Shown here one piece after another: positions 2,428 to 62,608 of a stretch of 64,000 nt of DNA. The notes under the pieces are model-generated. The model saw only the letters and a program-made list of their open reading frames with translations. It was not told the DNA's origin and made no database searches. The DNA is from Isoetes taiwanensis (lineage: Eukaryota; Streptophyta; Lycopodiopsida; Isoetales; Isoetaceae), in NCBI GenBank assembly GCA_021234155.1, contig JAJEKV010000290.1:124001-188000 (forward strand). The letters run 5' to 3'. Each line of letters opens with the position of its first letter. Position 1 is the stretch's first letter. Position numbers and translations under genes: made by a program.

Positions 2428-2569
2428 GGCTCTAAATGGGTTAAACTTGTCCAATTTGGGTGATATAAGGGTCTAATCCTGCTTATCTCGTCGAGTTAGG
2501 CAGAATGGACCCCTTATTTGGTCGATTTGGAGCAGTTTTCGGCACTTTTGGGGCATGGTCTCACAGCAA

Positions 2570-2640
2570 GGTCTCACACGTTGCGCCCAGACCGATAATG
2601 AACTTTTCATTTTCTGTCCTGGCGCGACGTGTGAGACATC
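2570..2640 (-). repeat. GC-rich dyad 2 of a pair
   Basis: This is a second, nearly identical copy of the dyad at 2357-2427, with the same arms and loop. It is the nearer of the two to the H3-derived ORF. Confidence 0.7.
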
Positions 2641-2776
2641 CTCTCAAATTGGCCTAGGATGTCTGTTTTGACAAACAAAAGCTAAAACTTACTAAATCAA
2701 CTTAATTAAGTAACTTTATACACTTATAATTTACTCTAAAACACTTTGTATTAAACAAATTTTATCATTTACGAAA

Positions 2777-3007
2777 TTAATAAGGCTCTCCTTTGATATG
2801 ACTGGGTAAGTGCATATCTTTCTTCATTAGAGTTACTCCCTTGGCATGTACTGTGCAGGCTGTTGAGTCTTCAAAGTGTTGGACCAGCTTCTGCTCTGCT
2901 ACTTCTTGACCCTTGGCCTCCCGCTCTCGTTCTGATCTCTCCTCTTCTTGTTTCCTTCGGCCTCCTTGGCCTCTGGTCAGTGCTTTGCTCTTGGTCTCCA
3001 AGAACAT
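2777..3007 (-). CDS. Histone H3-derived ORF, C-terminal fold only, inside LTR element
   Basis: This is a 76-residue open frame whose ATG lies one base beyond the PBS, so it is the first AUG of the internal transcript. Residues 1-35 are highly charged (E, R and K rich). Residues 36-76 match the end of helix 2, loop 2 and helix 3 of histone H3: the core reads HFEDSTACTVHAKGVTL, against FEDTNLCAIHAKRVTI in ordinary H3. It continues with a KKDMHL segment in place of H3's PKDIQL. Helix N, helix 1 and most of helix 2 are missing, so it cannot form a complete histone fold. The frame is intact here but broken in the sister unit. The H3 relationship is seen in the sequence; any function is inferred. 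It could be a decayed relic or a short peptide exploiting the H3 C-terminus, for example H3-H3' or H4 contacts. Confidence 0.75.
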   Translation of the reverse strand: MFLETKSKALTRGQGGRRKQEEERSEREREAKGQEVAEQKLVQHFEDSTACTVHAKGVTLMKKDMHLPSHIKGEPY

Positions 3008-3008
3008 T

Positions 3009-3020
3009 GCTCTGATACCA
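3009..3020 (-). other. Primer-binding site, initiator tRNA-Met
   Basis: On the minus strand this reads TGGTATCAGAGC, complementary to the 3' end of plant initiator tRNA-Met and the standard PBS of many plant LTR elements. It lies one base inside the LTR. The ATG of the H3-derived ORF begins one base further on. The sister copy at 12171-12182 differs by one base. Confidence 0.9.
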
Positions 3021-3021
3021 C

Positions 3022-11000: not shown

Positions 11001-11200
11001 AGAGTTGGTTTGGGGGGGTCCAATCTCTACACATGGAGTGACTTGGGCAGCTCTAGGCTCTAGCTCCTTTCTAGGTATTTTGGCAATGGGGGGGGTGTCA
11101 ATGTGGCGGCTATATAAGTCAAACTCTATTAGAAGGACACAGAATTAGGTCAAGGTTTATGCCTTTGGCATGAGCAGAGGTGATGTACCAACAGTTGGAT
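8100..11200 (-). pseudogene. Degenerate hydrophilic (gag-like?) coding region of the array unit
   Basis: The minus strand has a chain of hydrophilic, Q/K/R/E-rich open stretches in changing frames. The longest is 9719-10168 (149 residues); shorter ones lie at 9516-9749, 8761-8949, 8394-8612 and 8142-8369. The downstream unit repeats part of them at 1-294, 564-842 and 881-1141. Position after the PBS and H3-derived ORF, and composition, would suit a decayed gag. I see no zinc knuckle or major-homology-like motif, so the gag label is only positional. Frames differ between the two copies through 1-3 base indels, mostly at CG-rich sites. I see no pol motif downstream. Confidence 0.3.
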
Positions 11201-11521
11201 TTGGGTTGCTATGCTGAGGTCTAGATGACTCTAACAAAGGGGTGTTCTTGGGCACTTCTATCTAGGAGTAAGGCATCAGCTTCGAGCCGAGAGCAATACT
11301 TGCGAGGTACTAATGGGATATGCTTCTATTTACAAATAAACCACAGTTTGGGAAGAAAATTCAAGGGTTTGAGCAATTTTGGTTATTTTGAGCTGGGGTT
11401 TGACATTTCTAGCCTAATTTGAGATCATAAATGGATTCTAGGCTGTCTAACGATCCTATTGCAACAATTTTCAGGCAATTTGGAGCTCTGTAGCTCAAGT
11501 TATGGAGGTTCAAAGTTTGGA

Positions 11522-11590
11522 GGTCTCACACATTGCGCCCAGACCAATAATGAACTTTTCATTTTCTGTCCTGGCGCGACGTGTGAGACA
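11522..11590 (-). repeat. GC-rich dyad 1, sister unit
   Basis: The sequence is essentially identical to 2357-2427. The dyad arms are preserved. Confidence 0.7.
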
Positions 11591-11734
11591 TTGGCTCTAA
11601 ATGGGTTAAACTTGTCCAATTTGGGTGATATAAGGGTCTAATCCGCTTATCTCGCCGAAAGTTAGGGCAGAATGGACCCTTATTTGGTCGATTTGGAGCA
11701 GTTTGGGCACTTTTGGGGCATGGTCTCGCGACAA

Positions 11735-11798
11735 GGTCTCACGTTGCGCGGGACCGATAATGAACTTTTCATTTTACGTCTGGCGGCGTGTGAGACAT
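11735..11798 (-). repeat. GC-rich dyad 2, degenerate, sister unit
   Basis: This corresponds to 2570-2640, but both arms have lost bases in their CG-rich parts (GTTGCGCGGGACC; TCTGGCGGCGTGTG). The loop is unchanged. Confidence 0.6.
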
Positions 11799-11935
11799 CC
11801 TCTCAAATTGGCCTAGGATGTCTGTTTTGACAAACAAAAGCTAAAACTTACTAAATCAACTTAATTAAGTAACTTTATACACTTATAATTTACTCTAAAA
11901 CACTTTGTATTAAACAAATTTTATCATTTACGAAA

Positions 11936-12169
11936 TTAATAAGGCTCTCCTTTGATATGAGTGGGTAAGTGCATATCTTTCTTCATTAGAGTTACTCCCT
12001 TGGCATGTGCTTGTGTGGTCATTTGAGTCTTCAAAGTGTTGGACCAGACTTACGCCTCTGCTACTTCTTGACCCTTGGCCTCCCGCTCTCGTTCTGATCT
12101 CTCCTCTTCTTGTTTCCTTCGGCCTCCTTGGCCTCTGGTCAGTGCTTTGCTCTTGGTCTCCAAGAACAT
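11936..12169 (-). pseudogene. Broken copy of the H3-derived ORF
   Basis: This is the sister of 2777-3007 in the upstream unit, at the same position beside the PBS. Compared with the intact copy it carries a +2 change that creates an in-frame TAA after QEVAEA. A +1 change near the conserved loop restores frame, so the last 20 or so residues (HAKGVTLMKKDMHL...) are again readable. Net length is three bases longer. This is either decay or consensus error at two CG-rich sites. Confidence 0.7.
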
Positions 12170-12170
12170 T

Positions 12171-12182
12171 GCTACGATACCA
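12171..12182 (-). other. Primer-binding site, degenerate copy
   Basis: The minus strand reads TGGTATCGTAGC, one base different from the intact PBS at 3009-3020 after allowing for local shifts. It is placed identically just inside LTR 12184-13864. Confidence 0.7.
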
Positions 12183-12183
12183 C

Positions 12184-13864
12184 TGGCGTCCCCTACTTTA
12201 CTCGGTTGCACTCACTCAGGTATACAAACAGAGTTCATCCCCATACCGGCTCCAACCGATCTGAGGGGCCCTCCACGTGTCCTTTGCAACCTTGAGTTCG
12301 ATGGGAAGAATGAAGGGTCATTTTACCTGTCTCCCTTGGGGCCTACCTAGGCTGCGGAAGCGTAAACATACATGTCATTAGTACATACATCAACATCACA
12401 TGACCATCACGAAGGATGGTTCACCACATATCTGCATAGACAAAGATCAAGACATCACATAGGGAATCCTACCCAAGGCTCGCATAATGGGGATGGACTG
12501 ACAAGCTTGGGTCTCGTGAGGTCATTGCTGGGCGAAATTCATGGCAATGGATTTGGGTGGCATAAGAACATGGCTTAGGGTTGTCCACTCCATCCGCCCC
12601 TCGTGCACACACTGCGCAGTAGGGTGAAAAGTGTTGGGACTGACCGAAGCCCGCCCGGGTGCATAGCCAAAGGGGCTACCTACTCTTGGGTTACATCTCC
12701 CGGCCAGATGGGGCGGGTAGGGATCACTCCCTCCAGGAGATCTACATGTCGACTCAAAGGTGACTAGAGGGCCACGCGCCCTTATTCTGACCGAACCCAC
12801 TGGAAGGTGAACCCCACCCCATCGGTGTCGAGCCCATGCCTTGCCCTTTCGGTGGCAAGCCATTGGACCTAGTCACAATGATCCCGGTAGACTTTACACA
12901 CGGAGGGATCGTTCAAAGTCGAGAACCACGAACCTCCTTCTAACCCGGTCGGCCCCTTCACCCACAACCGGGTGTGGTTCTTGTGCCTGAGGCGAATCTA
13001 TAGTGTGCTAGAGAGGCTAATCTAGGAGCATCTACTACCAAGCTTTGGGTCTCTACCCCCTTCCCAATACAAGGAGTTCATAGAGATACATCATCCACAT
13101 ACATCATAAGAGAACTAAAGAACAAGATCTAATCTATATCATAGAGTTAGGTTCTTTAGTTAGAGTCCGGTATCTAGAGATCTAGAAGGCTGCTATGGGC
13201 AATTAAATAGGCTAAACCCTCTTGATTGATGGCTAAAAGAGGGTTTAGGCTATTGAATTGACCCAATACCGATCCTTGAGTTGCTCCTCTTGACTCCTGA
13301 GTTCGACCATCCATCTGTGAAATGCTTTCGAACCAAGGGAAACTAATGGTGCAATTCTCTCGAGGCCGAAGTCCGGGATCGCGGTTTTTGGCTCTTGGCG
13401 ACCAAAGCGAGCTCTAAAAACCCTAGAAAGCGAAAATGGGCAAGTTAGGGCTCTCCACCTTAAATAGACAAGGGGGTTGGGCTAGGGTTTCCAATTATCC
13501 CCTTTAGGCATGTGGGATAATTGGGAATGGGCCCACTTGCCTTTAATGGCTAGGTGGCAAAATGTGCCCACGTGGAAGGTGTGCCACATTAATGTGCATA
13601 TTGGTAAATGTGCACATTAATTGCACACTTGGTATGGCCCACTTGGCATAAAAGTGTCCACATGGAAAAATGTGCACCTAGATAAATGTGCACGTGGTTA
13701 AATGTGCACGTTAATAAATGCACACTCGCGCAAAAGTTGCCCCTAGGGGCTACCCACTGGCCCTGCGTCGCCTGCGTCGGTCGAGGGGGTGGCGTGTAAA
13801 TGCGGCGTGTGGCGATGCGGTATAGATCACGGGGACCGTGATCTTTGTCGGCCGAACGTCCACA
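12184..13864 (-). repeat. LTR (5' LTR of the array)
   Basis: This is the outermost LTR of the minus-strand array. It aligns end to end with 3022-4688 apart from many small indels. On its right side it meets unrelated sequence (AACAATGCAATTAC...) with no polypurine tract, so this is the outer edge of the array. The left terminus has lost two bases relative to the sister LTR (TGGCGTCCCC against TGTGACGTCCCC). The block of short TGTGCACATT-like repeats at 13560-13720 is shared with the other LTR. Confidence 0.8.
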
Positions 13865-32912: not shown

Positions 32913-33895
32913 CTAGCTCAAAAACCAATTTTTCATTACGAAATGACTATAGGTTGGCGTGATTTTGGAGTTGACATAATCCCAATTTAATTGGATGATG
33001 GTTTTATGAGCAAACTTTACCAAATACTCTCTCAAACCACTAGTGGATTTATCCGCCAAAATTGTTTCTGGCTCTAGGACTTCGGAATCATCAATCAATT
33101 CTGGGCTCACTTAACCTCCCAAGTTGAGGTAACTCCTTACCATGATAAGCCTTCAGGAATGACACATTCACTACATCATGCATTTTCCATCCTTGAGGCA
33201 ATCTTAATTGATATCCATTCTCATTGACCACTTTAATAACTTGAAATGGTCCATGGAAACGAGGTGCTAACTTAAGATCCTTCTTGTGCGCATCTTTCTT
33301 AAAGTGGCCTTTATGGATCCTCATCCATACCCAATCTCCATCCTTAAAAACCATTGGTTGCCGCAACTTAGATGATTTATTTGCAAAAGATGCTTGAGCA
33401 TCTCATATATGAGCTTGAAGCAAGTCTATGAGATCCTTATGCTCAATAACCAAATCATCAGCAGCTAGAACATCCTCACACACTCGAAAGAGTGGCTCCC
33501 GTGGCTGACCATAGACCGCCTGAAAAGGGGTCATCTTTATGGTAGACTAATAGGTATTATTATACACAAATTTAGCAATAGGCAAATACTCTTTCCAATG
33601 ACCTTGATGCTCATTGACAAATCCCCTTAAGATGGAACCAATAACTTTATTTACCACCTCGGATTGTCCATCAGTTTCTGGGTGAAAAGCAGTGGAGAAC
33701 CTTAACTCTGTTCCCAATTGCATAAACAATGCCTTCCAGAATTTACTGGTAAACTTTGTATCACAATCGGATACAATAATCTTTGGCAACCCATGCAGCC
33801 TAAATATCTCTTTGATAAAGAGCATAGCCGCACTATAAGCCGTCAACTTATTCGAACAAGGAATAAAATGGACGTATTTAGTTGGGTCTTTTTTT
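32913..33895 (-). pseudogene. Ty3/gypsy pol fragment: integrase core to chromodomain-like end
   Basis: Minus-strand frames give, in order: an integrase core (IKEIFRLHGLPKIIVSD, then TKFTSKFW, then FHPETDGQSEVVNKVI); after a stop near 33547, AVYGQPREPLFRVCEDV; then GDWVWMRIHKGHF with a GPFQVIKVVNENGYQLRLP segment; and a degraded chromodomain-like end (PETILADKSTSGLREYLVKF). The second catalytic Asp (SDCD, ancestral SDRD) and the Glu (DGQSE) are visible. The first Asp and everything upstream are missing, because homology stops at about 33885. It belongs to a different gypsy subfamily from the element at 47907-62603. It is a dead, 5'-truncated copy. Confidence 0.85.
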
Positions 33896-47901: not shown

Positions 47902-47906
47902 GCCCA
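47902..47906. other. 5-bp target-site duplication (left), GCCCA
   Basis: GCCCA directly precedes the TG of the 5' LTR. It is matched exactly after the 3' LTR at 62604-62608. Confidence 0.95.
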
Positions 47907-48137
47907 TGTGACGTTCCCCTAAAATATATGGCATAAGTACGTATATTTTACGGACACGTCACCATACATTTCTACATCCCTAGACATGTATACAACCAAT
48001 GTGGGGGTAATGACTAAGTTATCTATAACTTAGCCAACCTAAGGTAAGAAGCCATTTCCATATGGCCTCACCTTATAGGCATACCGCCACATAGACACAC
48101 CTATAGGAGCCAAGTGGCACTCATGTAAACCCTAACA

Positions 48138-48163
48138 TATAAAAGGCTAAACCCTAAACCCTA
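48138..48163 (+). promoter_or_regulatory. LTR promoter: TATA box followed by telobox
   Basis: TATAAAAG at 48138-48145 is followed by AAACCCTAAACCCTA at 48149-48163, a double plant telobox. The 3' LTR has the same pair at about 60733-60758. Teloboxes are known binding sites of TRB-type factors near plant transcription starts, so this is probably the element's transcription start region. Confidence 0.65.
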
Positions 48164-49318
48164 GCCACTTTCGGCTCCACCAACCTCAGACCCACCCGGT
48201 TCGGATCGAGTTGGACCAAGACCGCCTTCGACGCCTTTGGGTTGCAGCAGCTAGATTGCCGAGATGGAGAACTGGTGGAATTAGCGGCAACAAGATCGTA
48301 AGGCAGGTCAGCATTGTAGTAGAGCTATTCTAGAACCTATTGCTCTGAACATGAACCCTAATCAATGAACCCTAACTATAGGTTAGATGTATGTGATTAG
48401 GATTAGTTGTTATTCTCTTTTATTATCAAGATTATGTTGATATGATGCTAGTTGATCTTATGTTTGCACCTCTTGTGTATTGGGAAGGGGGGTAAAGACC
48501 TAGTAGCAATTATTTAGATGATGCTCCTAGTTTAGATCCATTAGTTCCCATTATTTGCGGCCTGTGCATAGAACCCACCTGGCTACGGAGGCTATGGAGT
48601 GACTGAGCACCACACAACGGGGTCAGTGGCAAAGTGGAGGGAGGACCTTGCTGAGCGCGGCTACTGGGGTCCCATAGCGGGCTAGGCTCATAGTCGGTCA
48701 CTTCGTGTGGGCCGGGTATGGGACCGACACTTCCTGGGTCAATGGTGTCGCCCTGACTCTCAAGAGTTGCAAGTGTCGTCGGCTTGGCTCTTTGTTTTGG
48801 GGAGTTCGCGGGTATGGACGTGTGTCGCCCACGATCCTCTAGCGCCCATGGAGCCACCGTGACTCGGGAGGGGAGATGCAACCCTTCCTACCTCATCGGA
48901 CCGGGAGATGCAAACCGGAGTAGTCTCGATGGGTGATACCATGGGATTACGTCTCCCAAGCAGGTTGATCCACGCCTTGAGCCTGATTTAGCCTATCTGC
49001 AAGGTACGCACAGGAGGGGCGGATGGAGTGGTCAACCCTAGCCATTGTCTATTGCCAGCCCAAGTCATTGCCATAACTCCTGGCCCTGTTTCTATCCGAG
49101 GCCCCCGGTAGCCACCGACTCCCCTTGAGTCTGAGCCCTGGGTAGGAGCCTCTATTTGATGTATTTGATGCATTCATTGTATTGTTGTATTTGATGACAT
49201 GGATAGATGGATTATCACTACCCTTCGAGGTAGTCTATTGTTATTATTGCTAGTGCTTATGTTATATATTTTGCTTCCGCTGACATAGGGAACCCATAGA
49301 GGACGGGACAGAATGACA

Positions 49319-49873
49319 CATTAGAGGAAATTTGAGATCTCATTTCATCCCCATAAGAATCCTCCAATGGAATGGCTACCCTTTATTAACTGCAATTAAT
49401 GCAGCACCAACAACTTCATTGCTGTCGTTTTTCCCCCATAACTTTTGATCGACTTGTCAAAATGTTGCGACGTTTGTTGCATTAGATGCGGAATGAAAAG
49501 ATCTTTCCAATGATATATGGTTATGATGTATTTCAATATGGTCATATGTGTTAACCTTAAAAAAATATGATTTTTTGCTTATTTCTTATATATTTATATC
49601 GTAAAAGATATATAAATGGGTTATCACTAGATAGATCTTGTGAAGACGAACCCATTGCTACAAAAAGTTTTTGAATCGGAGTTTTGGATCAAAAGTTATA
49701 ATGAAAAAATGATACTACAGAAGTTAGTTGCAGCTGCATTAATTACAGGCTGCCACATAATACTGGAATGAGATATACTGGAGCTCTTCTCTTATTGGAC
49801 AGTTTAAAAAGCTGACATGGCATTTTAAGCATCCCTTAATGGGACGAAATGTGATCTCATTTTTCCTCTAATG
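49319..49873. mobile_element. MITE/foldback-like insertion in 5' LTR
   Basis: This 555-bp segment is present only in the 5' LTR. Ends are CATTAGAGG...CCTCTAATG, and the inverted similarity continues inward for at least 27 bp and, more loosely, across much of the arms (ATAACTTTTGATC near 49440 against GATCAAAAGTTAT near 49690; ATTAATGCAGC against GCTGCATTAAT). No ORF. The empty site in the 3' LTR reads GAATGACA/CCTTTGTG, and I cannot see a target duplication. Confidence 0.8.
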
Positions 49874-50010
49874 CCTCTGTGTCCTCTACTCGATCGTCTG
49901 GACCCCAGACGCGCGTTAGACAGAGGGCCCATACGACGGGTGCCGTTGGATGGGGAAGGTCCTTCGATGTATACGGCGGGCTGTCGTATATAGCGCAAGG
50001 AGTGTCACAA

Positions 50011-50023
50011 TGGTATCAGAGCC
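50011..50023 (+). other. Primer-binding site, initiator tRNA-Met
   Basis: TGGTATCAGAGCC begins one base after the LTR and complements the 3' end of plant initiator tRNA-Met over 13 bases. Confidence 0.92.
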
Positions 50024-50501
50024 TTGATCTTGGTTGACCAAGATCAAGCACTGGCCATTACCTTATGATAGAAAACTAACTGGCCTAGTAAAAAGTTGGG
50101 GTGCAAATCCCAATATTGAACCTCGAATGGAAAAATTTTCCATGGATAAGGTCATCCTTAAAATAAAGTCTAACTTAGAAAATAATAGTAATAGAATCCA
50201 TGAATTCTAAAGCTTGATGAAAAAAAAAAAAATAGAATTGGCTAAAATAGACTTCCCGGTGGAATGTGGTGTAAATCCACAATAAATAACCTAGGGACCA
50301 TTAGAGAATTTTAGGGTTCTAAAATTATAGGGTCAATGTAAATAAAGGTGGTAGGAATAAATAACCGTAAATACCCCCATATATACCCTAATTTGGCCAC
50401 AATAATTTTGCCTTAATCTGTTCTTTAAATCCCTTCTGAGTTACCTTCTCTCAAAAAAGGAGATCTCTAAGAATTTCCGTCCAACTCCAGAGCAGTTTGA
50501 T

Positions 50502-51516
50502 ATGGCACGTACGAAATCCACCGCCAGGAAATACCAAGCTCGTGAAGGTGTTCGACACGTAAGCATAGGCAAGCAGATTTACCCTGAGAAACATCCGAGA
50601 AGCGAGAGCGAAGAATCATCCGATGAACGGAGTTCACGGGAAGACGAGACGGTGGTATTAGTAGATTATGCGGAGTCGTCGTCAGAAGAACAACAGTCAA
50701 AATCACAAGAACAAGAAGAATCGCAGCAGGGAGAGGACTCTGAATCGCGAAAAAGGAGGGAAGTGCGCCGGGGTAAGCGAAAAGTAACACACGTAGCCAC
50801 AGAGGACTCAGAGGAACAAGAGGAGTCAATTGCACGGGAGAGACGATCTAAACGCCGCCTTGATAGGTATGGTAACTCGAGTCTAGTAATTCGTGATCAA
50901 GGACATCAGGAGCAAACAGAACAAAATCTCCCGGAGCAAGCGATAGCACCGCCACCACCATATCCGAAATGGACTACCCATGCGAAATCAGATAAGAAGT
51001 ACAGAGCAGGGGAGAGACCATTAAGTCTCCAGAAAGATCGGGAATACCGGAGGAAGTTGCAAGATTACCGTGCATATATGGAACAATGGGTTGCCTATAA
51101 TCATTGGTATAGCACACTGAAGATTCCCAGATTTGTAAAAGGAGGAAGACCTCGAACGGATGTTCGGAGACCCCCGCCTCGACCGGAGGAGTCGAAGAAA
51201 CCGGCAAAGCATGGGCCAAACTCGAAGCACTCCAGGGCCCTAAGAGAAATTAGGCATTTTCAACAATGCGTAAATCTCTTGATTCGAAGAGCCCCCTTCG
51301 AGGCTAGTGCGAGAAGTTATGCAGGAATTTATGACCCAGTATAGGGTTACCCCTATGATGCTCAGGGTTTGCCAAGAAGCAGCTGAGGCGGAGTTGTGTC
51401 AGTTGTTTGAGGAGTCAAATCTCTGCACTATTCACGCAAAACGAGTCACTGTTATGCCGAAAGACATGAATTTGGCGAAACGAATACGGAGGGAAAAGAT
51501 ATTGGGTTATTTTTGA
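50502..51516 (+). CDS. Long histone H3-like protein encoded by the retroelement (one frameshift)
   Basis: This is the first ORF after the PBS. The start [10 protein letters not shown] copies the H3 tail (MARTKQTARK), keeping the K4 and K9 equivalents. Residues 20-115 are Ser/Glu-rich with basic clusters ([15 protein letters not shown]-like). Residues about 145-235 are Pro/basic with PPPPYP. The histone fold then begins: [18 protein letters not shown], (frameshift near 51303), [39 protein letters not shown]. Hand alignment gives about 50 identities in about 88 positions to ordinary H3. Loop 1 has H3 length, without the extra residues common in plant CENH3, but HFQ, NLLI and QEAAE are CENH3-like choices. 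The first frame stops at 51344; the second covers 51307-51516. Total is about 335 residues against 136 for H3. The break may be decay, consensus error or programmed. Function is inferred: chromatin targeting or nucleosome mimicry. Confidence 0.85.
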
Positions 51517-52350
51517 AGAGTAAGAGAATCACGAAATCTTGTCATAATTAGTAGTAAATGTGTATGTTCAAAGATATTCATTCTATATGTTTAGACTATT
51601 TATTAAACTTTGCTTAAGAATCTATAAAGTCTCCGTGTTTCCATAAAATTGTAAAGCTACAGTGCTTCTACAAAGTTATTATGGAATATTAAATTTTCTA
51701 GCGCTTATAGAATAGTATTTTAACTTGGATTCAGGTAGCTATGAGTAATGCTAGATAAGTATTGAAGCGTTGTGAACGTAAAAAAAAAAAGAACGAGCTT
51801 AAAACATTATATTGTGTTAATAGATTGTATTTAAGCCATTGTAATCATCAAACTGTGCGCAGTAAGTATTGGTATTGATAGATCTCTAGTTTCTTAGTAA
51901 AACACACAAAAATATCCTAGCATTGCAAGTTATGCTAGTAAAACACAAAAATATATTAGAATTAACAAGCATAGGCACGATGCTGGAAAGCATTACAGTT
52001 TAATGTTTAGAGCCGGAACGAGTAGAATGTAATTAGTAGCTTCAACTATTATAAGCAACAAACTTATTAACAGCCTTTACTTAAATTCCATTCGAAACTT
52101 ACTTAACCGCAGCATTACCAGCCTTTACTTGAATAGGCTTAATAGAAACTTACATTGCAGCTCAGCTCTAAATCTGTGGCAAGCAGATTCTTAGCAGGCC
52201 GAAAGTGAAGAAAAGCTGGAAGATATTTAGTCACAAGCCGGAAATGAGACGCCATCAGAAGATCATAACGGTAAGTAGAGACATGTAGCAGGAATAGATT
52301 TCCATCAAAAATAGATAGGGCAAACCGGATAAGTAGAAACAGGGCTCAGG

Positions 52351-52417
52351 GCGACTCATGCCGCGCCCTGGCCTCAACCCAAACTTTCGAAGACCTCCCA
52401 GGCGCGGGGTGAGTCGC
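52351..52417 (+). repeat. GC-rich dyad 1 in leader
   Basis: The arms GCGACTCATGCCGCGCCCTGG (written here as its two parts GCGACTCATG and CCGCGCCCTGG) and CCAGGCGCGGGGTGAGTCGC pair over about 18 of 20 positions. The architecture and arm sequence recall the dyads of the minus-strand array. Confidence 0.7.
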
Positions 52418-52538
52418 ATCTGCATCAGAAAACATCTCCCTTTCCTGCCTTCTTCTGCCAAAGATCAAACTATACCTGCTGCTTGAAGAACCATCGCCAG
52501 ACTGGAAGAAGACCTTAAGCAGCTGGAAGAATGGCCGA

Positions 52539-52607
52539 GGCGACCCATGCCGCGCCCCAGAGCCATGCCAGAATCTAGGACGACCACCAGGCGCGGGGTG
52601 TGTCGCC
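52539..52607 (+). repeat. GC-rich dyad 2 in leader
   Basis: The arms GGCGACCCATGCCGCGCC and CAGGCGCGGGGTGTGTCGCC form a second copy of the preceding dyad, about 190 bp downstream. Arm substitutions have partly preserved pairing. Confidence 0.7.
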
Positions 52608-53310
52608 CTGTTCGACCTCTCCTGCTATTTTCTTGCCTTTAGCTTCTGCCCTAAATCGATTCCATATATCTGACCAGAGAAATAAAGGTTAAGCCTTTTC
52701 TTTCTTTCCATTTAATTCTTAGAAATTCCTACATTAGCCTTCGACCATAAATTATACCCAAACCTTCTCCTTCGTTTCTGTTCGTCCATGACCCTTTATT
52801 TTTTAACCCTTTCCATCGATTATTATTATTCATGACTCTTTCCATGACCTTTTAATTTTAACCCTTTCCATGACCCTTTATTATTATTCTTCCATGGATT
52901 TAACCCTTCTACTTCATTACACTATACTCTATTGGATTCCATATAGGTGTGAACGACCTCCTTTAATCTTTAATGGCCCCTTGTGCCAAGCCATTTGTGA
53001 TTAGCCATGATTTTTTTTTTTTTATTTTTTTTTTTATTTTTTTCTTGCCTAGACCAAACTTGCCGTATTAATGACAAACAATTGAAAAAGGGGCACTAAG
53101 GGAATGTGTGAATTCCAAGCCCCAAGAGCCACTCAACATAACCAAACATAAACATTAGAAAAATTAGGGTTTAGAATGAAACCCTAAAACGCTCTTTTGA
53201 GTATATATATCCTTCACCTCCTACTTGAAGCCACAAGAAGCTCACTTAGGCGATTTTTCATACTCCTCATCCTATTACACAGATTTTATTCGCACCTTGC
53301 ATATAGTTCC

Positions 53311-54043
53311 ATGGCACCTATAGAATTTGTTCAATGGTACGGCAACTCAGATCATATCAGGGAAGCACCAATAGAGGAGGTATTTCAAGTATTTCAGCAT
53401 ACCTTTGACTTGGGTGAGACAATATCCAGGACACCTTATTATCAAGATATTCTTGCTCGATACAATCAAGAGCTCCAGAGCCAAGAAGTAAGACTTCAAG
53501 GACAAATCGGAACGTGGATCTCTCTTAAAGCTATCATGGCAAAGACCTTGAGCCATAACAGGAAAACAATTAGAAAAAGGATGGAAAGAATGCCCGCATA
53601 CATGACATGCAAGGTTCAAGGGCACAAATATTTATCAACACAAGTAGCCTTAGCAACCTTTTTGCATTATCAGGCAATAAACAGGACAGGGGAACCGTCA
53701 GTGCGACCCCTTGATCTCGCACCATTGAATATGAGGGCAGCTATGCCGTATTTAGAAGAACTGGACCTCAAGTCCAACCCCCAGATTAGCCAAACAGCTG
53801 GAGAAGTACATCGACACCACAGAAGACCTCCCAAGAAAGGCAACAGCTCCCCCAGTTGGAATCACATCTCTTACGCCAATTATTATCGAAGGGGAGGAGT
53901 ACCTTTTCGCAGATGATATCTTACATCTACCGTACTGCATTGATCAAGGTCTCCGCTTGGACGAACTCCTGGCTATCATCACGGATGCTTATAACGATGA
54001 CTTCATCGATTATTCCGAAAGCGAGGAGCTTCCAAAGAGATAG
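53311..54043 (+). CDS. Extra ORF of unknown function ahead of gag (one frameshift)
   Basis: The likely start is MAPIEFVQWYGNSDH; an upstream in-frame ATG at 53197 would add a hydrophobic, probably artefactual leader. The frame runs about 157 codons and then shifts by one base near 53785. It continues (RLAKQLEKYIDTTEDLPRK ... DELLAIITDAYNDDFIDY) to a stop at 54041-54043. Total is about 245 residues with an acidic C-terminus. It has no zinc knuckle and no gag motif that I recognise. A middle segment is basic (NRKTIRKRMERM). Its position between the H3-like ORF and gag makes it a second accessory gene of the element. Confidence 0.6.
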
Positions 54044-54930
54044 CTGAAAAGGAGACCTATACCACACGAGAACATCACCGGCATACAAGCGTATGATTTT
54101 ATCAAGCATCGGATCGACATCGGGATCTTCCGGATGAGAATGAGTTCGAGCAATTGAGGCAAGATTGTTTAAGAGTGGGAATACTGAAGTCAAACCCAAG
54201 CAAGCCACCGTCATCATGGGGCCAAACTCAAGGGCAGTCACATTAACCTTGATAGTGCTATATCGATGAAGAAGGATCATGATGACTTGATGGCTTATAG
54301 AAATACTGGTCGCAGCCATGAGGAAAGGGTCCGGATCCGCGGCCAAGAGGAAAAGCTTTACGCTACTATCTCCCTTAAGCTCACTAAAAGGCCAAATAGT
54401 AGTTTTTCCGGGGACGTTTAGCCACACGAGGAGAAGAGGCGGTTTACTTGCTATCAAGACTCTCCGACTTTTGCGACTCATTCTAAACTTCGCGAGAACG
54501 TTGACCATATAATTCTAATTAGGAGATCACGGGGCCCAGATTACCTTGATTTTGCTCGGGGATACCTTTGAGATGGACCCTTAGCAAAGTAATGGCCGCC
54601 GCGGACACATGACTTGCCCCAGAAAAGGTAGCTCCAAAGACTTGAAGGACACTCGACATGGAACATGCTATTTAAACATCGGCCATGGCCTCAAACTCAA
54701 AGACATTAAAGAACACTTCAAACCCAAACGTCGACGTCAGCACTAGAGCCCAAGACCTCAGAATGTAGATATATCTTAAAATAGTATTTTTGAACTCAAA
54801 TTTTGAGATCAAATATGTAAATTTCTTATTATGAATATAAGTGTTTTGCTATAAGTTCTTCAACGAGTAAGATAAATACCATAGCAATAACATCTTAGTA
54901 GCCATAGTACATAACAGACATCCTTGATTA
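54044..54930 (+). other. Decayed coding-like stretch
   Basis: Short open pieces remain in changing plus-strand frames. One reads EERVRIRGQEEKLYATISLK, another HGTCYLNIGHGLKLKDIKEH. This may be the end of ORF2 or a further lost ORF. I cannot identify it. Confidence 0.3.
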
Positions 54931-56200
54931 ATGTTTGCAGCCAGGAACTTCACAACAACTCCACAGAATCAAGGAAGTCAAGGCCAAGCCTCTAATTGGG
55001 CACCAAGAAACTTATTCGGCCGAGAAGCACAGGAGGTCGAGATGACACCAGCAGAGATAAACAGGCGCCTGGTAGAAATGGGCAGGCAAATGCGCGAGTT
55101 GGTGCAGATTGTTATCCCACTCATTCGAGGGGAGGAGTATGGGCCACAACAACCACCTCTTCAAGAAGAGGAACATCAACTCAACAATCAGCCAGAACCA
55201 CAACCTGCCCCACAGCTATCCGGACACAACAAGAGAAAGAGAAGGACTAGAACATACCAAAACTCTTCGAGTTCAGGCTCGATGATGGCTTCGGATGATA
55301 ACTCGTCCGATAGTGACTCGGCAAAGATTCGCAGACAACTCACATAGCAGGCACAAGCACCGCAGAAAGAGGATTATCAAAAGAAAATAGATAGTGCAAT
55401 GAGCAATGTCCGGAAAACACGCATAGCAAAAAGCTGGGGACAGTTTTCGGGGAAAAGACAGTCGGAATGGAAGTGAAGCTTGGCTAGATGAGATGGAAGA
55501 ATTCGGGAATTCATATGGCATGAAGGACAAAGATATTGGCAAGGTAGCAACTGCCAACTTGATAGGACCAGTGCGTATATGTTGGAAGGGGTATGCAAAG
55601 TCAAATAGGCTAAGGAGAAACAATTGTCGATTCAAAACCTTTCAGCAATTTTTCGTAAGCATTATGTGCCACGCTCACATACTAGCCGCCGATATCTGGC
55701 AGGTTTACTGCTTTGGACCAAGGAAATGCATGCGTAGCCAAATACGAGAGGAGTTTATGAGGCTAAGGTTAAATGTTCCGGGATATCGAAAAGACAGCAG
55801 GTTGATGGTTATATAGAGGGGCTTAATAGCAACATCAAAAGATTAGTTAGTGCAATAAACCCGGGGACGGTAGGGGAAGCGAGAAGATAAGGCTTTGAGT
55901 CTAGAGGAGACACCACAAAACACAACAGCAGAGACAACAGTGTGCGACAAAGGGAAATCAGCATGTAGCTTCAACCAAAAGCGCCAACCCCCGCAGGGGA
56001 AGAGCACAACAGTACATTGTGGTAAAATGACAAAAAGACATCCTTTAAGGAACCTTATACAACAGCTCCCTCGTGAGGAAAGTCGATTGAAGCAATTTTG
56101 AATAGCATACCTAAGGAAAAAGGGACGAATGTATAAAAGAAAAGTTGTGCTTCGGGTGTGTTTCCAACAGGACATCGCACTCACGAAAGTGTCCTTTAGG
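54931..56200 (+). pseudogene. Gag, broken into several frames
   Basis: The first frame (54931-55347, 138 codons, MFAARNFTTTPQNQ...) is Q/E/P-rich with a basic then Ser-rich end. Further downstream, pieces in other frames resemble plant chromovirus Gag: VYEAKVKCSG, then GYIEGLNSNIKRLVSAINPG with a following TVGEA. Near 56150, a degraded Cys-x2-Cys...His...Cys cluster (CFGCVSNRTSHSRKCP) looks like a zinc knuckle. Gag normally assembles the virus-like particle and binds the RNA genome. At least four frame breaks are present, so this copy is dead. Confidence 0.65.
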
Positions 56201-56202
56201 TC

Positions 56203-57231
56203 ATGCAAGCAGCTATGGCAGATCTTGAAGGATGGGATTCCCCAACAGACATTGACGTCGACGAGGAGGAGGCCCAAGATTTCATCGAAGGTGAGTGTAG
56301 AATTTGTGCCGCCATAGAAACCGAAAATGTGGAGAGTCAGTCCACTGTCATTTCAGCAGAGGGCATTATAGATGATAAACCCTATCGAGTCCTAATAGAC
56401 ACAGGAAGCTCCAACAACTTCGCATCTCCTAGAATGGCAGCGTTACTCAAAAGAAAGATCCTCAAGTCAAAGCCCAGACCAGTGAGCATGGCAAGTGGAG
56501 CAATACGCCATACAAAAGGAAAAAGAGTGAACTTTGATATAGCATTGAGCGGGGCAAATTTGAACATGGGGGCTGAAGTCATGGATATTGGAAAATATGA
56601 TCTCATAGTCGGCATGGAATTCTTAAAGCCAGCTAAAGCAGTGATCGATTGTGATAAACACGAGATATCAATCATGGCACCTAATGGCAAACATTTTTTG
56701 GTCAAAGGTAAGAAAATTGCCTCAATAATGCAGTGCATGTCATTAAAGCAATTGCGTAAATGCATCTCCAAGGATGAGGTTGATTATATCCTTAGGCTAG
56801 AAGCCATAGACCCAAACGAAAAGAATAAGAAGGAGGATGAAAATTTTAAACAATTACCTAGGGCAATTGGCAAGTTAATTAAAGAATTTCATGACCTATT
56901 TCCGGATGAAATCCGAGAATTACCGCCTTACAGAGGTGTCGAATGTGAAATCACTCTTGCACCAGATGCAGCCCCATATAGGATGAGCACACCTGAGCTA
57001 GCTGAGCTCAAGAAGCAACTGCAAGAATTATTAGAGATTGGGTTCATTAGGCCAAGTGTATCACCGTTTGGTGCACCCATCCTCTTCGTCAAGAAGAAAG
57101 ACGGAAGTTTACGGATGTGCATTGATTATCGTCAGCTCAACAAGCAAACGATAAAGAACAAATATGCATTGCCAAGAGCAGATGATCTAATGGACCAGCT
57201 CCAAGGAGCAAAGCTCTTTTCAAAAAATTGA
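56203..57231 (+). CDS. Pol part 1: aspartic protease and RT fingers
   Basis: The 342-codon frame contains the retropepsin active site [10 protein letters not shown] (Asp at residue 66) and a partner segment [11 protein letters not shown] follows from about residue 240, with the typical [20 protein letters not shown], then [33 protein letters not shown] and an [12 protein letters not shown] segment. It ends at a stop just after KLFSK, where RT continues in the next frame. Known role: maturation of Gag-Pol and start of the polymerase. The frame is intact up to a single frameshift near 57225. Confidence 0.9.
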
Positions 57232-57715
57232 TTTAAGGTCTGTTATCACCAAATAAGAATCAAGGAGGAGGATATCCATAAGACCGCCTTTGAGCCTTGA
57301 TACGGGCATTATGAGTTTCGCGGTCATGCCTTTTGGTCTATCAAATGCTCCCACACGGTTATGCCCTCTGATGAATGACATCTTCAGGGACTTTCTAGAT
57401 GAATTTGTCATCATATTTTTCGATGACATTCTAATTTATAGCAAGTCTATGGAAGAACATGTCGTACATTTGAGGAGGGTATTATAAAAGCTAAGACGAC
57501 ATCGTTTGTATGCTAAACTTTCCAAATGTCACTTTGCAACAACTAGAGTGGAATATTTGGGGCATGTGGTCACAGCAGAGGGAATCTCAACGGACCCAGT
57601 AAAAATAGAAGCCATAGTGGATTGGCCCAGCACCAAAGAATGTCTCGAAGTAAGAAGTTTTCTTGGCTTAGCGGTGTTACTACCAGAATTTGTAAAGGAC
57701 TTAAGCTAAGTGGGC
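57225..57715 (+). pseudogene. Pol part 2: RT palm and thumb, frameshifted
   Basis: RT continues in other frames. YHQIRIKEEDIHKTAF precedes a shift at about 57296. The 57290-57487 frame then gives VMPFGLSNAPTRL and the catalytic FFDDILIYS (Asp pair at 57422-57427). After a TAA (57485-57487), 57506-57709 gives YAKLSKCHFATTRVEYLGHV, with AEGISTDPVKIEAI and a final VRSFLGLA. Catalytic residues survive although the frame does not. Confidence 0.85.
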
Positions 57716-58389
57716 ATCCCTTTGTCGGACCTTACTAAGAATAAAAAGGTAAAAGATTGGGGGCACATTGGCTAGAGAATGTTCAAGCTTCATTCAAAAG
57801 CTCAAAGAAGTTTTAACAATCGCACCAGTGCTCACCCTACCAGATCCAAACAAGGACAAGCTAGTAGCAACTGATGCAATTAAGCTAGCAACTGGTGGAG
57901 TCCTCATGCAAGAAGGAAGAGTGGTAGCCTACGATTCTAAGAAGATGAATGACGACTGAACAGCGTTATCCAACCCATGATCAAGAACTTCTAGTTTTGT
58001 TGTGAGAGCTCTTAAGTATTTGGAGGCATTATTTGCTTGGTAGAAAATTTCAGTTAGATACTGATCACCAGAGCCTCCAATACATTTTTACACAACCATT
58101 CCTCAACTTGAGGCAAAGACGCTGGATGGAATTCCTCGAAGAATATGACTTCGAGATAGTCTATAAGCCAGGCAAATTAAATGTGGTTGCCGACGCACTC
58201 TCTCGCCGACCATTAGAAACTCGAGTGCATTGCAATGCCATCTCCACCTTGTCCAGTGAATTCGGAGCAAGGAATTCAAGGAAATATGGGCTAGTCTTTG
58301 CAAAGAAGCAAGGACAGACAAAGAAAGAGAAGCTTATAAAAGATGTAAAAAGGAAGGTAATATTTTATACCACAAGGACAAACTTTTAA
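57716..58389 (+). pseudogene. Pol part 3: RNase H, frameshifted
   Basis: The 57768-57959 frame contains APVLTLPDPNKDKLVATDA and GGVLMQEGRVVAYDSKKMN, the start of the Ty3-type RNase H (its DAS motif now reads DAI). The 58033-58389 frame contains FQLDTDHQSLQYIF, then LRQRRWMEFLEEYDFEIVY and GKLNVVADALSRRP, the end of the domain. Two frame breaks separate the parts. Confidence 0.85.
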
Positions 58390-59726
58390 GGCCCCAGAGG
58401 CATGGAGTAAGGAAGTTAATTCTTCATGATACTCATAATAGCCCAATAGCCGGCCACGCTGGGGTTCATGAAAACTTACTTCAAGATAAGAAGTAGTTAT
58501 CCGCCGGGCATGAAAAGGACATCGCCAACTATATTCGGCAGTGTCAATTGTGCCAGCAAACAAAAGCGGAGCAACTCCGAATTCCAGGAACCTTAGAACC
58601 CTTGGCAGTGCCAAATGCTAAATGGGAGGTTGTGAGCATGGATTTTATAACCGGACTCCCAAGAACACCAAGAGGCCATGATGCCTTAATGGTCGTGGTC
58701 GACAAGCTATCAAAGATGGCTCACTTTTTGCCATGTCGAACCACCGATACAGCTTTGGATACCGCCTTGCTTTTTGCAAAGGAAATATTTAGATTGCATG
58801 GGATGCCAAGGGAAATCATCTCCGATAGAGATCCTAAGTTCATAAGTGCCTTCTGGAAGGATTTCTTCAACATGATCCAGACAAAGTTGTCCATGAGTAC
58901 AGCATATCATCCCCAAACCGATGGGCAAACGGAACGGACCAATCGAATATTAGAAGACATGTTGAGGAACTATGTATGGAATAAACAGTCCAAATGGGGT
59001 GACTATATTTACTTGGTAGAGTTTGCATATAACTTGATTACAAGCGAGAATCCTATAAATGTCCCCTTCATAATAAATTATGGCTATCAATGTTTAACAC
59101 CAGACATGTGGCATAACCCAGTGTCCAAGGTTGAAGTTTCTCAACAAATGTTGACTGATATGCAGCAATTAGTCGACGAAGTCAGAGGCTATTTATTGGC
59201 AGCAAGAAGTCGACAAAAGAGCATAGCCGATAAGCATAGAACCGAAAGAGAATTCCAAGTAGGGGATAATGTTTGGCTTAAGATAAAAGTTAAACAAGCA
59301 AAGCTCAGAATCGGCAATTGCAAGAAGCTTGCTCCAAGGTGGGCGGGACCATTCAAAATTGTTCAAAGAATAGGTAACCAATCCTATAAATTGGATCTCC
59401 CCACCCACTTGAAGGTTCATAAAGTCTTCCATGTAAGCCTTTTGAAAAAGCATACTCCTAATCCGGAGGAGATATTGGAGACTCCAACCTTGTTGGAAAT
59501 GACTGAAGAACAACTTGAGATCGTCCCAGAAGCTCTTCTTGACAAGGCATATAAGAAAACAAGGAGATCTCAGTTCCTCCAATATTTGGTCAAGTGGAAA
59601 CACTTGCCAGTGGAAGACGCGACATGGGTACTTAAATCTGATCTTGAGAAGCAGTACCCACAGTTTATGGAGCAATGCAAAGGCCAGCTCGCCACGGACA
59701 TCGTTAGCAATGATTCGGCAAGGTGA
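58390..59726 (+). CDS. Pol part 4: integrase with C-terminal chromodomain
   Basis: A His-His-Cys-Cys zinc-binding region (HDTHNSPIAGHAGVH, then CQLCQQ) is interrupted by a TAG near 58494. From 58548 the frame is open for 392 codons. The catalytic triad is D32 (SMDFITGLP), D93 (ISDRDPKF) and E129 (TDGQTERTNR), with exactly 35 residues between the last two. A C-terminal DNA-binding region (VGDNVWLK, RWAGPFKIV, SYKLDLP, VFHVSLLK) leads to a chromodomain at about 326-373 (PEALLDKAYKKTRRSQF, YLVKWKHLPVEDATW). Chromodomains of this class target integration to particular chromatin. The main part is intact, unlike the rest of pol. Confidence 0.93.
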
Positions 59727-60488
59727 GAGTAGGCATTAAGTAGTGACTCGACCTTGACAGGTCAAAGAGTCCACGCAATCACCTTTGCGTAGCCAAGACG
59801 CATGTAGGTTAAGCATGAGATCATGGGCGATGATGGGATCACCTTTAACGTTCCCTACGCCATGATGGCATCCCTATAAGCAATTAGGCATATATAAGTC
59901 CTAGAACTGTCATGGATAGGTGCATAATAGGGAACCACCTATAGTCTATGGCTATTAAGGAGGATAAGCCACCTCCTACGCCAAGGGTGACGAAAGGTGT
60001 AGGCATTAGTCGTGCATTCATCTTAGGCATGATAGGACGCATCTCCACGGCCACTATGGGGGAAGCATCCTCCCCCTATGCCGGGGAAATGTTGGATTCA
60101 TGTAGGTTAAATTAAAAATAAAAGGGGGTGGGCCCTTATAAAACCACAAATTACTAATTAAAACTAACGTGATGTGCTCTTGCAGGCCAATAGAGGAGAG
60201 GGGATTGTCAACAGAGAGCGCATCATGACAAAAATAGGAGTTATAACATTTCATTAAGTTATAGAACTCTATGAATGTTATAATAATCTATTATAATAAA
60301 TAAGTCTAAATAAATACATTGTTGGAGCTATATAATTTTCTCAAAACGAGATTATAGCTTCACAATTATATTGATGTAATTGGCATTAGTAGTTCATAAC
60401 TATAATAATATTGAAGTGTTATGGTGCATATATGTTGTGATATGTGATGCAGGTTCACCTTATGTAATGCTGAGGACAGCATTAACCC
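59727..60488 (+). other. 3' untranslated region of the chromovirus
   Basis: This is non-coding sequence between the integrase stop and the PPT. It contains imperfect ACCTTTGCG/ACGCATGTAGG and GCATGATAGGACGC repeats; the lower part (60230-60450) is AT-rich. Confidence 0.6.
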
Positions 60489-60501
60489 AAGGGGGGGAGA
60501 A
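60489..60501 (+). other. Polypurine tract
   Basis: AAGGGGGGGAGAA abuts the TGTGACG of the 3' LTR and resembles the PPT of the minus-strand array (AAGGTGGGGAGAA). Confidence 0.92.
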
Positions 60502-60834
60502 TGTGACGTTCCCCTAAAATATAGGGCATAAGTACATATATTTTACGGACACGTCACCATACATTTATACATCCCTAGACATGTATACAACCAATGTGGG
60601 GGTAATGACTAAGTTATCTATAACTTAGCCAACCTAAGGTAAGAAGCCATTTCCACATGGCCTCACCTTATAGGCATACCGCCACATAGACGCAGCTATA
60701 GGAGCCAAGTGGCACTCATGTAAACCCTAACATATAAAAGGCTAAACCCTAAACCCTAGCCACTTTCGGCTCCACCAACCTCAGACCCACCGGGCCAGGG
60801 ATCGAGCTCCGGCCAAGACCGCCGTCTTCGACAG

Positions 60835-61385
60835 CCTTGGGTTCAGCAGCAGCTAGGTTGCGAGATGGAGAACCGGGGAATTAGCGGCACAAGGTCAGTA
60901 AGGGTGTATTTTTGAATAGATTCCAGCATTGCAGTAGAGCTATTCTAGAACCTATTGCTCTGAACATGGACCCTAATCAATGAACCCTAACTATAGGTTA
61001 GATGTATGTGATTAGGATTAGTTGTTATTCTCTTTTATTATCAAGATTATATTGATATGATGCTAGTTGATCTTATGTTTGCACCTCTTGTGTATTGGGA
61101 AGGGGGGTAGAGACCTAGTAGCAATTATTTAGATGATGCTCCTAGTTTAGATCCATTAGTTCCCATTATTTGCGGCCTGTGCATAAAACCCACCTGGCTA
61201 CGGAGGCTATGGAGTGACTGAGCACCACACAACGGGGTCAGTGGCAAAGTGGAGGGAGGACCTTGGCCGAGCTCTTTGGGGTCCCATAGCGGGCTAGGCT
61301 CATAGTCGGTCACTTCGTGTGGGCCGGGTATGGGACCGACACTTCCTGGGTCAATGGTGTCGCCCTAACTCTCAAGAGTTGCGAC
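60835..61385 (+). repeat. LTR internal duplication, unit 1
   Basis: This runs from TTGGGTTCAGCAGCAG to CTCTCAAGAGTTGC. The next unit begins with the same phrase (CTTGGGTTGCAGCAGCAG). The 5' LTR has a single copy. Confidence 0.8.
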
Positions 61386-61935
61386 AGCTTGGGTTGCAGC
61401 AGCAGTTGCTAGAGATGGAGAACCAGGGAATTAGCGGCAGCGCGTCAGGGGCAGGTATTTCGAATAGATTCCAGCATTGCAGTAGAGCTATTCTAGAACC
61501 TATTGCTCTGAACATGAACCCTAATCAATGAACCCTAACTATAGGTTAGATGTATGTGATTAGGATTAGTTGTTATTCTCTTTTATTATCAAGATTATGT
61601 TGATATGATGCTAGTTGATCTTATGTTTGCACCTCTTGTGTATTGGGAAGGGGGGTAGAGACCTAGTAGCAATTATTTGGATGATGCTCCTAGTTTAGAT
61701 CCATTAGTTCCCATTATTTGCGGCCTGTGCATAGAACCCACCTGGCTACGGAAGCTATGGAGTGACTGAGCACCACACTACGGGGTCAGTGGCAAAGTGG
61801 AGGGAGGACCTTGTTGAGCGCGGCTACTGGGGTCCCATAGCGGGCTAGGCTCATAGTCGGTCACTTCGTGTGGGCCGGGTATGGGACCGACACTTCCTGG
61901 GTCAATGGTGTCGCCCTGACTCTCAAGAGTTGCAA
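61386..61935 (+). repeat. LTR internal duplication, unit 2
   Basis: This is the second copy of the segment. The two copies differ by scattered substitutions and small indels at CG-rich points. Confidence 0.8.
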
Positions 61936-62603
61936 GTGTCGGCTTGGCTCTTGTTTTGGGGAGTTCAGTCGGGTATGGACGTGTGTCGCCACGATCCTCT
62001 AGCCGCCCATGGAGCCACTGCACTCCGGGAGGGGGAGATGCAACCCTTCCTACCTCATCGGACCGGGGAGATGCAACCCGGAGTAGTCTCGATGGGTGAT
62101 ACCATGGGATTACGTCTCCGGCAGGTTACAGTCACGCCAGAGCCTGATTTAGCTTATCTGCAAGGTATGCACAGGAGGGGCGGATGGAGTGGTCAACCCT
62201 AGCCATTGTCTATTGCCAGCCCAAGTCATTGCCATAACTTCTGGCCTCTGTTCTATCCGGAGGCCCCGGTAGCCGGGTCGACTCCCCTTGAGTCTGAGCC
62301 CTGGGTAGGAGCCTCTATTTGATGTATTTGATGCATTCATTGTATTGTTGTATTTGATGACATGGATAGATGGATTATCACTACCCTTCGAGGTAGTCTA
62401 TTGTTATTATTGCTAGTGCTTATGTTATATATTTTGCTTCCGCTGACATAGGGAACCCATAGAGGACGGGACAGAATGACACCTTTGTGTCCTCTACTCG
62501 ATCGTCTGGACCCCAGACGCGAGTTAGACAGAGGGCCCATACGACGGGTGCCGTTGGATGGGGAAGGTCCTTCGATGTATACGGCGGGCTAAGGAGCGTC
62601 ACA

Positions 62604-62608
62604 GCCCA
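62604..62608. other. 5-bp target-site duplication (right), GCCCA
   Basis: This matches 47902-47906 exactly and defines the right border of the chromovirus. Confidence 0.95.

Follow-up and report, generated by a model that had tools for sequence, protein, structure and literature searches.

The first open reading frame (ORF1) of a chromodomain Ty3/gypsy LTR element in Isoetes taiwanensis is, almost certainly, an H3-type histone that is carried by the retrotransposon. The element spans positions 47907-62603 of the window, i.e. the whole 64,000-nt stretch of DNA that was analysed. Its parts are listed here; L014 is another copy of the family, described below.

47902..47906, no strand: target-site duplication GCCCA, 5′ copy, identical to 62604-62608
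47907..50009, + strand: 5′ LTR, TGTGACG...GTGTCACA, with an insert of ~550 nt at ~49323-49873
50011..50022, + strand: primer-binding site (PBS), TGGTATCAGAGC
50502..51344, + strand: ORF1 piece A, 280 aa, start [10 protein letters not shown]; H3-type N-terminus, spacer, and start of the fold
51301..51516, + strand: ORF1 piece B, 71 aa, remainder of the H3 fold (PF00125, 1.1e-18)
53311..53916, + strand: ORF2-like frame, 201 aa, MAPIEFVQWYG..., located as ORF2 is in other copies
55045..56200, + strand: broken gag remains, taking in parts of the ORFs 54931-55347 and 55493-55816
56203..57231, + strand: protease (PF08284, 5e-9) and start of the reverse transcriptase (RT), the latter by similarity to L014
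57218..58386, + strand: remaining RT and RNase H region, broken (PF17917, 5.2e-7, in 58033-58386)
58548..59726, + strand: integrase (PF00665, 2.4e-8; PF24626, 2.2e-22) with a terminal chromodomain (PF00385, 5.7e-11)
60489..60501, + strand: polypurine tract, AAGGGGGGGAGAA
60502..62603, + strand: 3′ LTR with an internal duplication of ~550 nt, 60829-61382 / 61382-61933
62604..62608, no strand: target-site duplication GCCCA, 3′ copy, pairing with 47902..47906

Both LTRs start with TGTGACG and end with GTCACA, and their divergence is K2P 0.029 (1521 aligned sites, gaps left out). The ~550-nt insert at 49323-49873 of the 5′ LTR is missing in the 3′ LTR, which has the internal duplication of ~550 nt instead. 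The PBS is presumably of the initiator-Met type; tRNA genes were not found in the window. The TG...CA ends of the LTRs, the PBS, the polypurine tract, and the 5-bp target duplication are those of a Ty3/gypsy chromovirus. An earlier note on this DNA, made from the sequence alone, had placed the H3 ORF between just these borders, and all of them were found (47907-62603, with GCCCA on both sides).

The Pfam domain order of L014 is Ty3_capsid, RVP_2, RVT_1 (PF00078, 7.3e-39), RT_RNaseH, H2C2, and rve, where the rve score of 30.3 bits is slightly below the cut-off and the position of the chromodomain is beyond the stretch analysed. Together with the protease, RNase H, integrase, and chromodomain of the window element, whose RT was identified by similarity only, this gives the chromovirus gene order (gag, PR-RT-RH-INT, chromodomain). 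The earlier note had spoken of an “otherwise standard chromovirus”. The assignment to the chromoviruses stood, the word “standard” did not, because an extra ORF2 is present at 53311 and stops and shifts disrupt gag as well as a large part of pol. The ORF2-like frame of the window had no significant sequence match to the ORF2 of other copies. The spacer between ORF1 and ORF2 contains two copies of a 68-nt repeat (52350-52417 and 52539-52606, 72% identical).

ORF1 is the first ORF of the element and extends over 50502-51516 with one frame break; location and start ([10 protein letters not shown]) are as previously given. Piece A has an H3-type N-terminus, continues with ~235 charged or Pro-rich spacer residues and the start of the fold, [22 protein letters not shown] (~51237-51302), and departs from the H3 frame near 51300. 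The search against Pfam PF00125 that had been proposed gave 68.1 bits for piece B (E 1.1e-18, cut-off 26.4) and 14.6 bits (E 0.041) for piece A alone; the values for ORF1 of the copies L014 and L056 are 148 bits and 101.6 bits, respectively (cut-off 26.4). The best of 174 PDB matches of piece B is histone H3.2 (E 5.1e-20). With the two pieces compared separately, not joined, the identities to the genome's own H3 are 40/67 for piece B and 13/22 for the end of piece A, in sum 53/89, close to the ~50 identities over ~88 positions that had been counted by hand. A chance match to H3 is ruled out by the E value of 1.1e-18 and by the conservation across many copies. The claim that the tail keeps the contexts of K4 and K9 has to be narrowed, as the context of K9 is kept only partly (ARK-Y, not ARK-S). 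A check that the two frames join in other copies had also been proposed, and a single open frame was indeed found in L049 (371 aa) and L051 (370 aa), lengths that count some codons upstream of the first Met. These are two of six retrieved copies of subgroup D1, to which the window copy belongs; in the remaining four ORF1 is broken or incomplete.

The window contains further remnants. A second H3 remnant at 2786-2908 (- strand) matches host H3 with 54% identity across 41 residues (E 1.8e-9), and a more decayed twin is found at 11945-12070 (- strand); both are within a repeat pair, 1-4685 / 9158-13860, that is 92% identical. At 33316-33882 (- strand) there is an integrase-like sequence that shares 39% identity, across 192 aa, with pol of the H3 elements.

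The genome search covered 1,658,258,908 bases in 1110 contigs. Scanning with PF00125 yielded 8705 first-look candidates, among which core histones of all kinds are expected. The best 150 of these were scored, and all 150 were above the cut-off. The top 15 were taken as ordinary H3 genes (from the score table and inspection of L001-L008), and the other 135 are non-canonical H3s whose open frames range from 108 to 494 aa. In 20 of 20 copies (L009-L028), the open frame ends with the H3 fold, a value partly forced by their choice by H3 score, mostly with long frames. A degenerate codon pattern for DANLCAIHA, the element-type motif (host H3 has DTNLCAIHA), had 1269 exact matches in the genome (651 + 618), the reversed control had none, and many synonymous spellings occur among the 100 places listed. 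Piece A of the window has 143 matches in the genome.

The position of the histone within the element is recurrent. In 14 of the 20 copies chosen by H3, the PBS motif TGGTATCAGAG is found upstream of ORF1, preceded by an LTR end resembling that of the window (GCGTCACA), and the parts, wherever they could be identified among these 20, follow one another as PBS - ORF1(H3) - ORF2 - ORF3 - gag. For an independent anchor, we scanned for gag and scored the best 150 of 11488 candidates. At least 22 of these 150 have a non-canonical H3 on the same strand 0-8 kb upstream, as compared with the best 135 H3 hits, and the distance between gag and H3 is 2.51-2.71 kb in 17 of the 22. In these best-scoring lists, only one of 150 gag hits has an H3 on the opposite strand, and none has one downstream. 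On contigs C1-C579, an exact match to the H3 pattern is upstream of 7 of 12 gag hits. The earlier note had held that the histone lies inside the element and had named a later insertion with its own borders as the opposite case; the counts of 22/150 and 17 at 2.51-2.71 kb agree with the former. A host H3 gene adjoining the element, or a late insert, is rejected by the fixed distance to gag and by the PBS in 14/20 copies. An assembly chimera is rejected for the family, as the layout recurs across many contigs.

We also opened 20 slots located by gag alone, taking about one in four of the top 78 gag ranks. Ten of them hold at least part of the fold, one more holds only the N-terminal domain described below, and nine hold neither, some of these being unrelated DNA and others LTR or ORF2 pieces. 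Of the ten fold-bearing slots, two hold a partial fold (L032 and L039), one a fold with a stop (L035), and one a broken fold (L046). That the ORF recurs in other copies, which had been set beforehand as a condition, was therefore found for 20/20 copies chosen by H3 and, with at least part of the fold, for 10/20 chosen by gag. The 10 slots of 20 without a fold at the expected place suggest that many copies are deleted, shifted, or rearranged, and that the H3 may not be needed in cis. Two further conserved genes are ORF2 and a smaller ORF3. ORF2 has ~480 aa in L010 (3276-4727, - strand), L019 (5475-6923, + strand), and L028 (3136-4599, - strand), with 45% identity between L019 and L028; ORF2 and ORF3 of the H3 elements had no Pfam family above the cut-off. 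In L014 (3922-8197), ORF1 ends ~0.3 kb before gag with the H3 kept, and ORF2 and ORF3 were not found.

The ORF1 products have ~340-465 residues, with a C-terminal H3 fold behind ~240-370 residues (42 in ordinary H3), and fall into two clades. In clade ABC, ~320-370 residues precede a fold that is 80-89% identical to host H3 (74-81 of 91-93 residues; 72/82 in the shortened L035). They comprise an N-terminal domain of ~215 residues in three subtypes, mutually 30-35% identical, followed by a linker that is either Gln-rich or charged and by a basic, H3-like segment. Clade D, which includes the window copy, has MARTK-x-TARK, a highly charged spacer, and a more diverged fold, in which at most 57/93 residues are those of host H3. 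Of 14 D2 copies, 11 have the exact MARTKQTARK, although with codons that vary between copies; the exceptions are L057 and L068, with a single change in each, and L059, which is without the N-terminal end. MARTK[S/A/T]TARK is present in 5 of 6 D1 copies and in the window. In the ABC copies opened, ARTKQTARK is not at the N-terminus; a similar internal stretch is found in some (L044).

In a tree built from 66 folds, with the copies restricted to unbroken ones, a branch sets off each of ABC and D (100/97 and 100/99), and ABC adjoins host H3. When ABC and D are constrained to group together, the tree is worse by 9.1 log units (p-AU 0.037; 14 rows versus 14, with a long D branch). A single capture is thus weakly disfavoured, and two separate captures of H3, in ABC and in D, are weakly favoured. 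The integrase of the window is 83% identical to that of L014 (261 aa), its PR-RT is ~61% identical to those of L014 and L023, and the gag piece 55493-55816 is 47% identical to L019 (97 aa). These identities relate the two clades through gag-pol, the tie of clade D to the chromovirus being that of the window copy only.

To estimate selection, medians of pairwise dN/dS were calculated with NG86, a crude method whose values are rough because dS is near saturation in many pairs. Pairs with dS of 0.05-1.5 (ABC) or 0.03-1.5 (D) were kept, too-short or non-computable pairs were dropped, and the totals of pairs were worked out from the copy numbers. For the ABC fold, dN/dS is 0.041 with copies chosen by H3 score, a choice that favours low values (100/190 pairs), and 0.086 with copies chosen by gag (7/21 pairs). 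The respective values for the ABC N-terminal domain are 0.141 (37/120 pairs) and 0.107 (3/6 pairs). For D2, whose copies were collected with piece A as query (only the beginning of the fold is in this piece), the values are 0.036 for the fold (53/78 pairs), 0.099 for the middle (69/91), and 0.167 for tail and linker (58/78). As judged from these medians (0.04-0.09), the fold is under strong purifying selection in ABC and D2 and, more weakly, so is the part before the fold. In D1, the small group of the window copy, the values are 0.27 for the fold (7/10 pairs), 0.47 for the middle (13/15), and 0.46 for tail and linker (10/10), indicating that the constraint is weak (0.27-0.47).

The conserved part of the fold was determined with copies that had been collected without a motif filter. 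At 39 of 93 positions, the residue of host H3 is present in at least 90% of 27 ABC copies and of 18 D copies, after three ABC and two D copies with <80% of the fold had been left out. Copies picked by the pattern, which itself forces ~10 positions, gave 38/93. Kept in both clades are R49, R63, R69, R72, R83, C110, H113, K115, and R116, as well as V117, T118, D123, L126, R129, and I130. In terms of nucleosome structures, the kept positions are presumably involved in DNA contact and in the H3-H3′ four-helix bundle. Only 71% of the gag-anchored copies retain E97, residues 86, 87, 105, and 107 are all unlike host H3 in the 27 ABC copies, and the stretch 87-90 is unlike host H3 in D. Part of these differences at 86-90, 105, and 107 is presumably near the chaperone-specific patch of H3. 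An H3 that still enters nucleosomes, perhaps by a route of its own, would show a pattern of this kind.

We suggest that host H3 was acquired by a lineage of chromodomain Ty3/gypsy elements and has been retained there as the first gene, located between PBS and gag. The protein is probably incorporated into nucleosomes, with host H4 as its partner, as we infer from the conserved fold. Such variant nucleosomes, with their bulky extension and altered tail, would sit on copies of the element or on unintegrated nuclear cDNA. Element chromatin could then stay expressible or competent for integration where nucleosomes with host H3 would be silenced; that this is the purpose of the H3 in ORF1 is quite possible, short of probable. 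The N-terminus is not common to ABC and D, so that what both clades need would be the fold and a long stretch in front of it. Taken together, identity, selection, and assembly into nucleosomes with a role in chromatin make up a reading that we regard as likely on the sequence evidence.

Several other functions have to be weighed against this reading. The element H3 could mark or join target nucleosomes, its extension or its methylatable ARTK-TARK tail drawing in the pre-integration complex; in one variant, the tail would be read by the chromodomain of the integrase. Such a chromodomain is present in the window element, ARTKQTARK is exact in 11/14 D2 copies, and the 5′ ORF proteins of Tekay elements are predicted to be nuclear, extra ORF proteins having been suggested to help shape insertion preference, according to the available part of PMC11728184. 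The ABC copies opened are, however, without ARTKQTARK at the N-terminus, so that a shared tail-reading mechanism cannot explain both clades, and we consider integration targeting, which ranks second among the explanations, rather unlikely. The absence of this N-terminus from the ABC copies opened also speaks against a decoy, i.e. a protein that soaks up host histone chaperones or the writers or readers of tails, outside nucleosomes. A decoy would fit the exact tail of most D2 copies (11/14), and mimicry of the H3 tail by viral proteins is known, but the most constrained part is the fold, with its presumed DNA contacts; it is an improbable explanation.

The same fold bears on packaging, in which an H3-like protein would condense the cDNA of the element, with or without H4, in the particle or at nuclear entry. 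The arginine positions that we take to contact DNA are kept and the D spacers are highly charged, as would suit this function; the presumed positions of the H3-H3′ bundle are kept too, however, and mere condensation of DNA would not need them, which leaves packaging with little likelihood. Passive hitch-hiking of a functionless fragment of host H3 has a published parallel in the capture of H3 by DNA transposons of fungi (PMC6710886, as far as available), and the weak constraint in D1 would agree with it. It is nevertheless very hard to reconcile with median dN/dS values of 0.04-0.09 at high dS in ABC and D2 and with the place of the H3, which is fixed across divergent subfamilies, and is scarcely credible. 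Returning to the nucleosomal histone, we tentatively propose a joint reading in which one lineage took in H3 twice (ABC and D), each time stretched it N-terminally, and uses a private nucleosomal histone as a selected strategy to control the chromatin of its own copies; histone-armed retrotransposons might then be a distinct kind of mobile element.

Long H3s are also present in the protein collection. The H3 part of the L014 ORF1 had 4900 matches to proteins of similar length, of which the best 120, judged by names and identities, resemble gene models holding an ordinary H3; three of them were used in part for the tree. The N-terminal domain of ABC (from L014) gave 1930 candidates, none with an E value up to 0.001. 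A D2 query (end of the spacer plus fold) matched 160 proteins, and 26 of the best 120 were read. Five long H3s have the layout MxRTKQTARK (or nearly so), spacer, and fold, namely P0197, P0216, P0193, P0191, and P0172, with 24, 12, 6, 5, and 1 members, respectively; P0135, P0147, and P0161 have a different N-terminus. Given their layout, the proteins with MxRTKQTARK, spacer, and fold, some of which belong to large clusters, may be additional cases that arose independently, and the long H3s P0197, P0216, P0191, P0193, P0172, P0135, and P0147, of which some have a split tail as in clade D, may be further histones of mobile elements. A search of viral contigs for two long H3s gave 9 and 62 pattern matches, with no confirmed relatives.

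H3 marks are part of the silencing of transposons by the host, so that an element with its own H3, strongly selected and with a tail that is altered or stretched, would, if the proposal is true, play with the central piece of its host. Selection seems to have maintained a working ORF1 in many copies, and the elements may therefore use a chromatin protein of their own. The many diverged H3s would be a natural set showing which parts of the fold are unchangeable and which N-terminal lengths are tolerated. In addition, the extra 5′ ORFs of plant chromoviruses gain a member with a clear, well-understood domain, so that its role is directly testable.

Among known systems, CENH3/CENP-A is alike in its divergent H3 fold and variable N-terminus, and clade D has ~60% fold identity to H3; the element H3 differs in being encoded by a retrotransposon. 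CENH3 has a longer loop 1 than H3. In the unbroken copies, the fold aligns with that of host H3 without any insertion (93 columns), and no chain named CENP-A is among the best 60 of the 174 PDB matches of piece B, so that an identity as CENH3 is not supported. Core histones are also encoded by viruses, e.g. the giant-virus histones and the long-tailed H4 of bracoviruses. The likeness is that a mobile or viral genome brings a core histone of its own, in some cases one with a lengthened tail, but these are DNA viruses, whereas the Isoetes element is a retrotransposon and H3 is the only histone found in it.

Additional 5′ ORFs have been described for plant chromoviruses, i.e. the Tekay group, RIRE3, RIRE8, and Retrosat-2 (PMC11728184, PMC7264820, in the parts available). 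They share with ORF1 that an extra conserved ORF in the 5′ region encodes a long, partly disordered product. The sunflower Tekay protein has no match to a known domain, and some relatives are dsRNA-binding-like by predicted structure; unlike ORF1, none is described as a histone, a word absent from the main texts of both papers (PMC11728184, PMC7264820). Of the features considered for the Tekay clade, the Isoetes element shares the extra 5′ ORF.

The earlier note knew of no plant LTR element with an H3 gene, and in the open-licence literature we likewise found by title or abstract no paper on such an element, nor on any retrotransposon-borne H3; “histone” is absent from the main text of both Isoetes genome papers (one is PMC8566536). 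The nearest case is that of Dothideomycete fungi, in which hAT DNA transposons captured histone H3, with hundreds of copies in Pseudocercospora fijiensis, inactivated by RIP, and tens in Pyrenophora tritici-repentis, which are recent and putatively active (PMC6710886, as far as available). Both systems have an H3 coding sequence inside an amplified mobile element. The Isoetes element is not an H3-carrying hAT transposon, since it is bounded by LTRs and has remains of gag-pol. The fungal elements, according to the same partial source, are DNA transposons that have TIRs and contain an H3-like sequence close to the usual H3 in length; in contrast, the Isoetes element is an LTR retrotransposon with 240-370 residues before the fold and with selection over high dS. 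An H3 in hAT transposons of fungi was thus known before (PMC6710886, in the part available), and what appears to be new here is an N-terminally remodelled H3 in an LTR retrotransposon.
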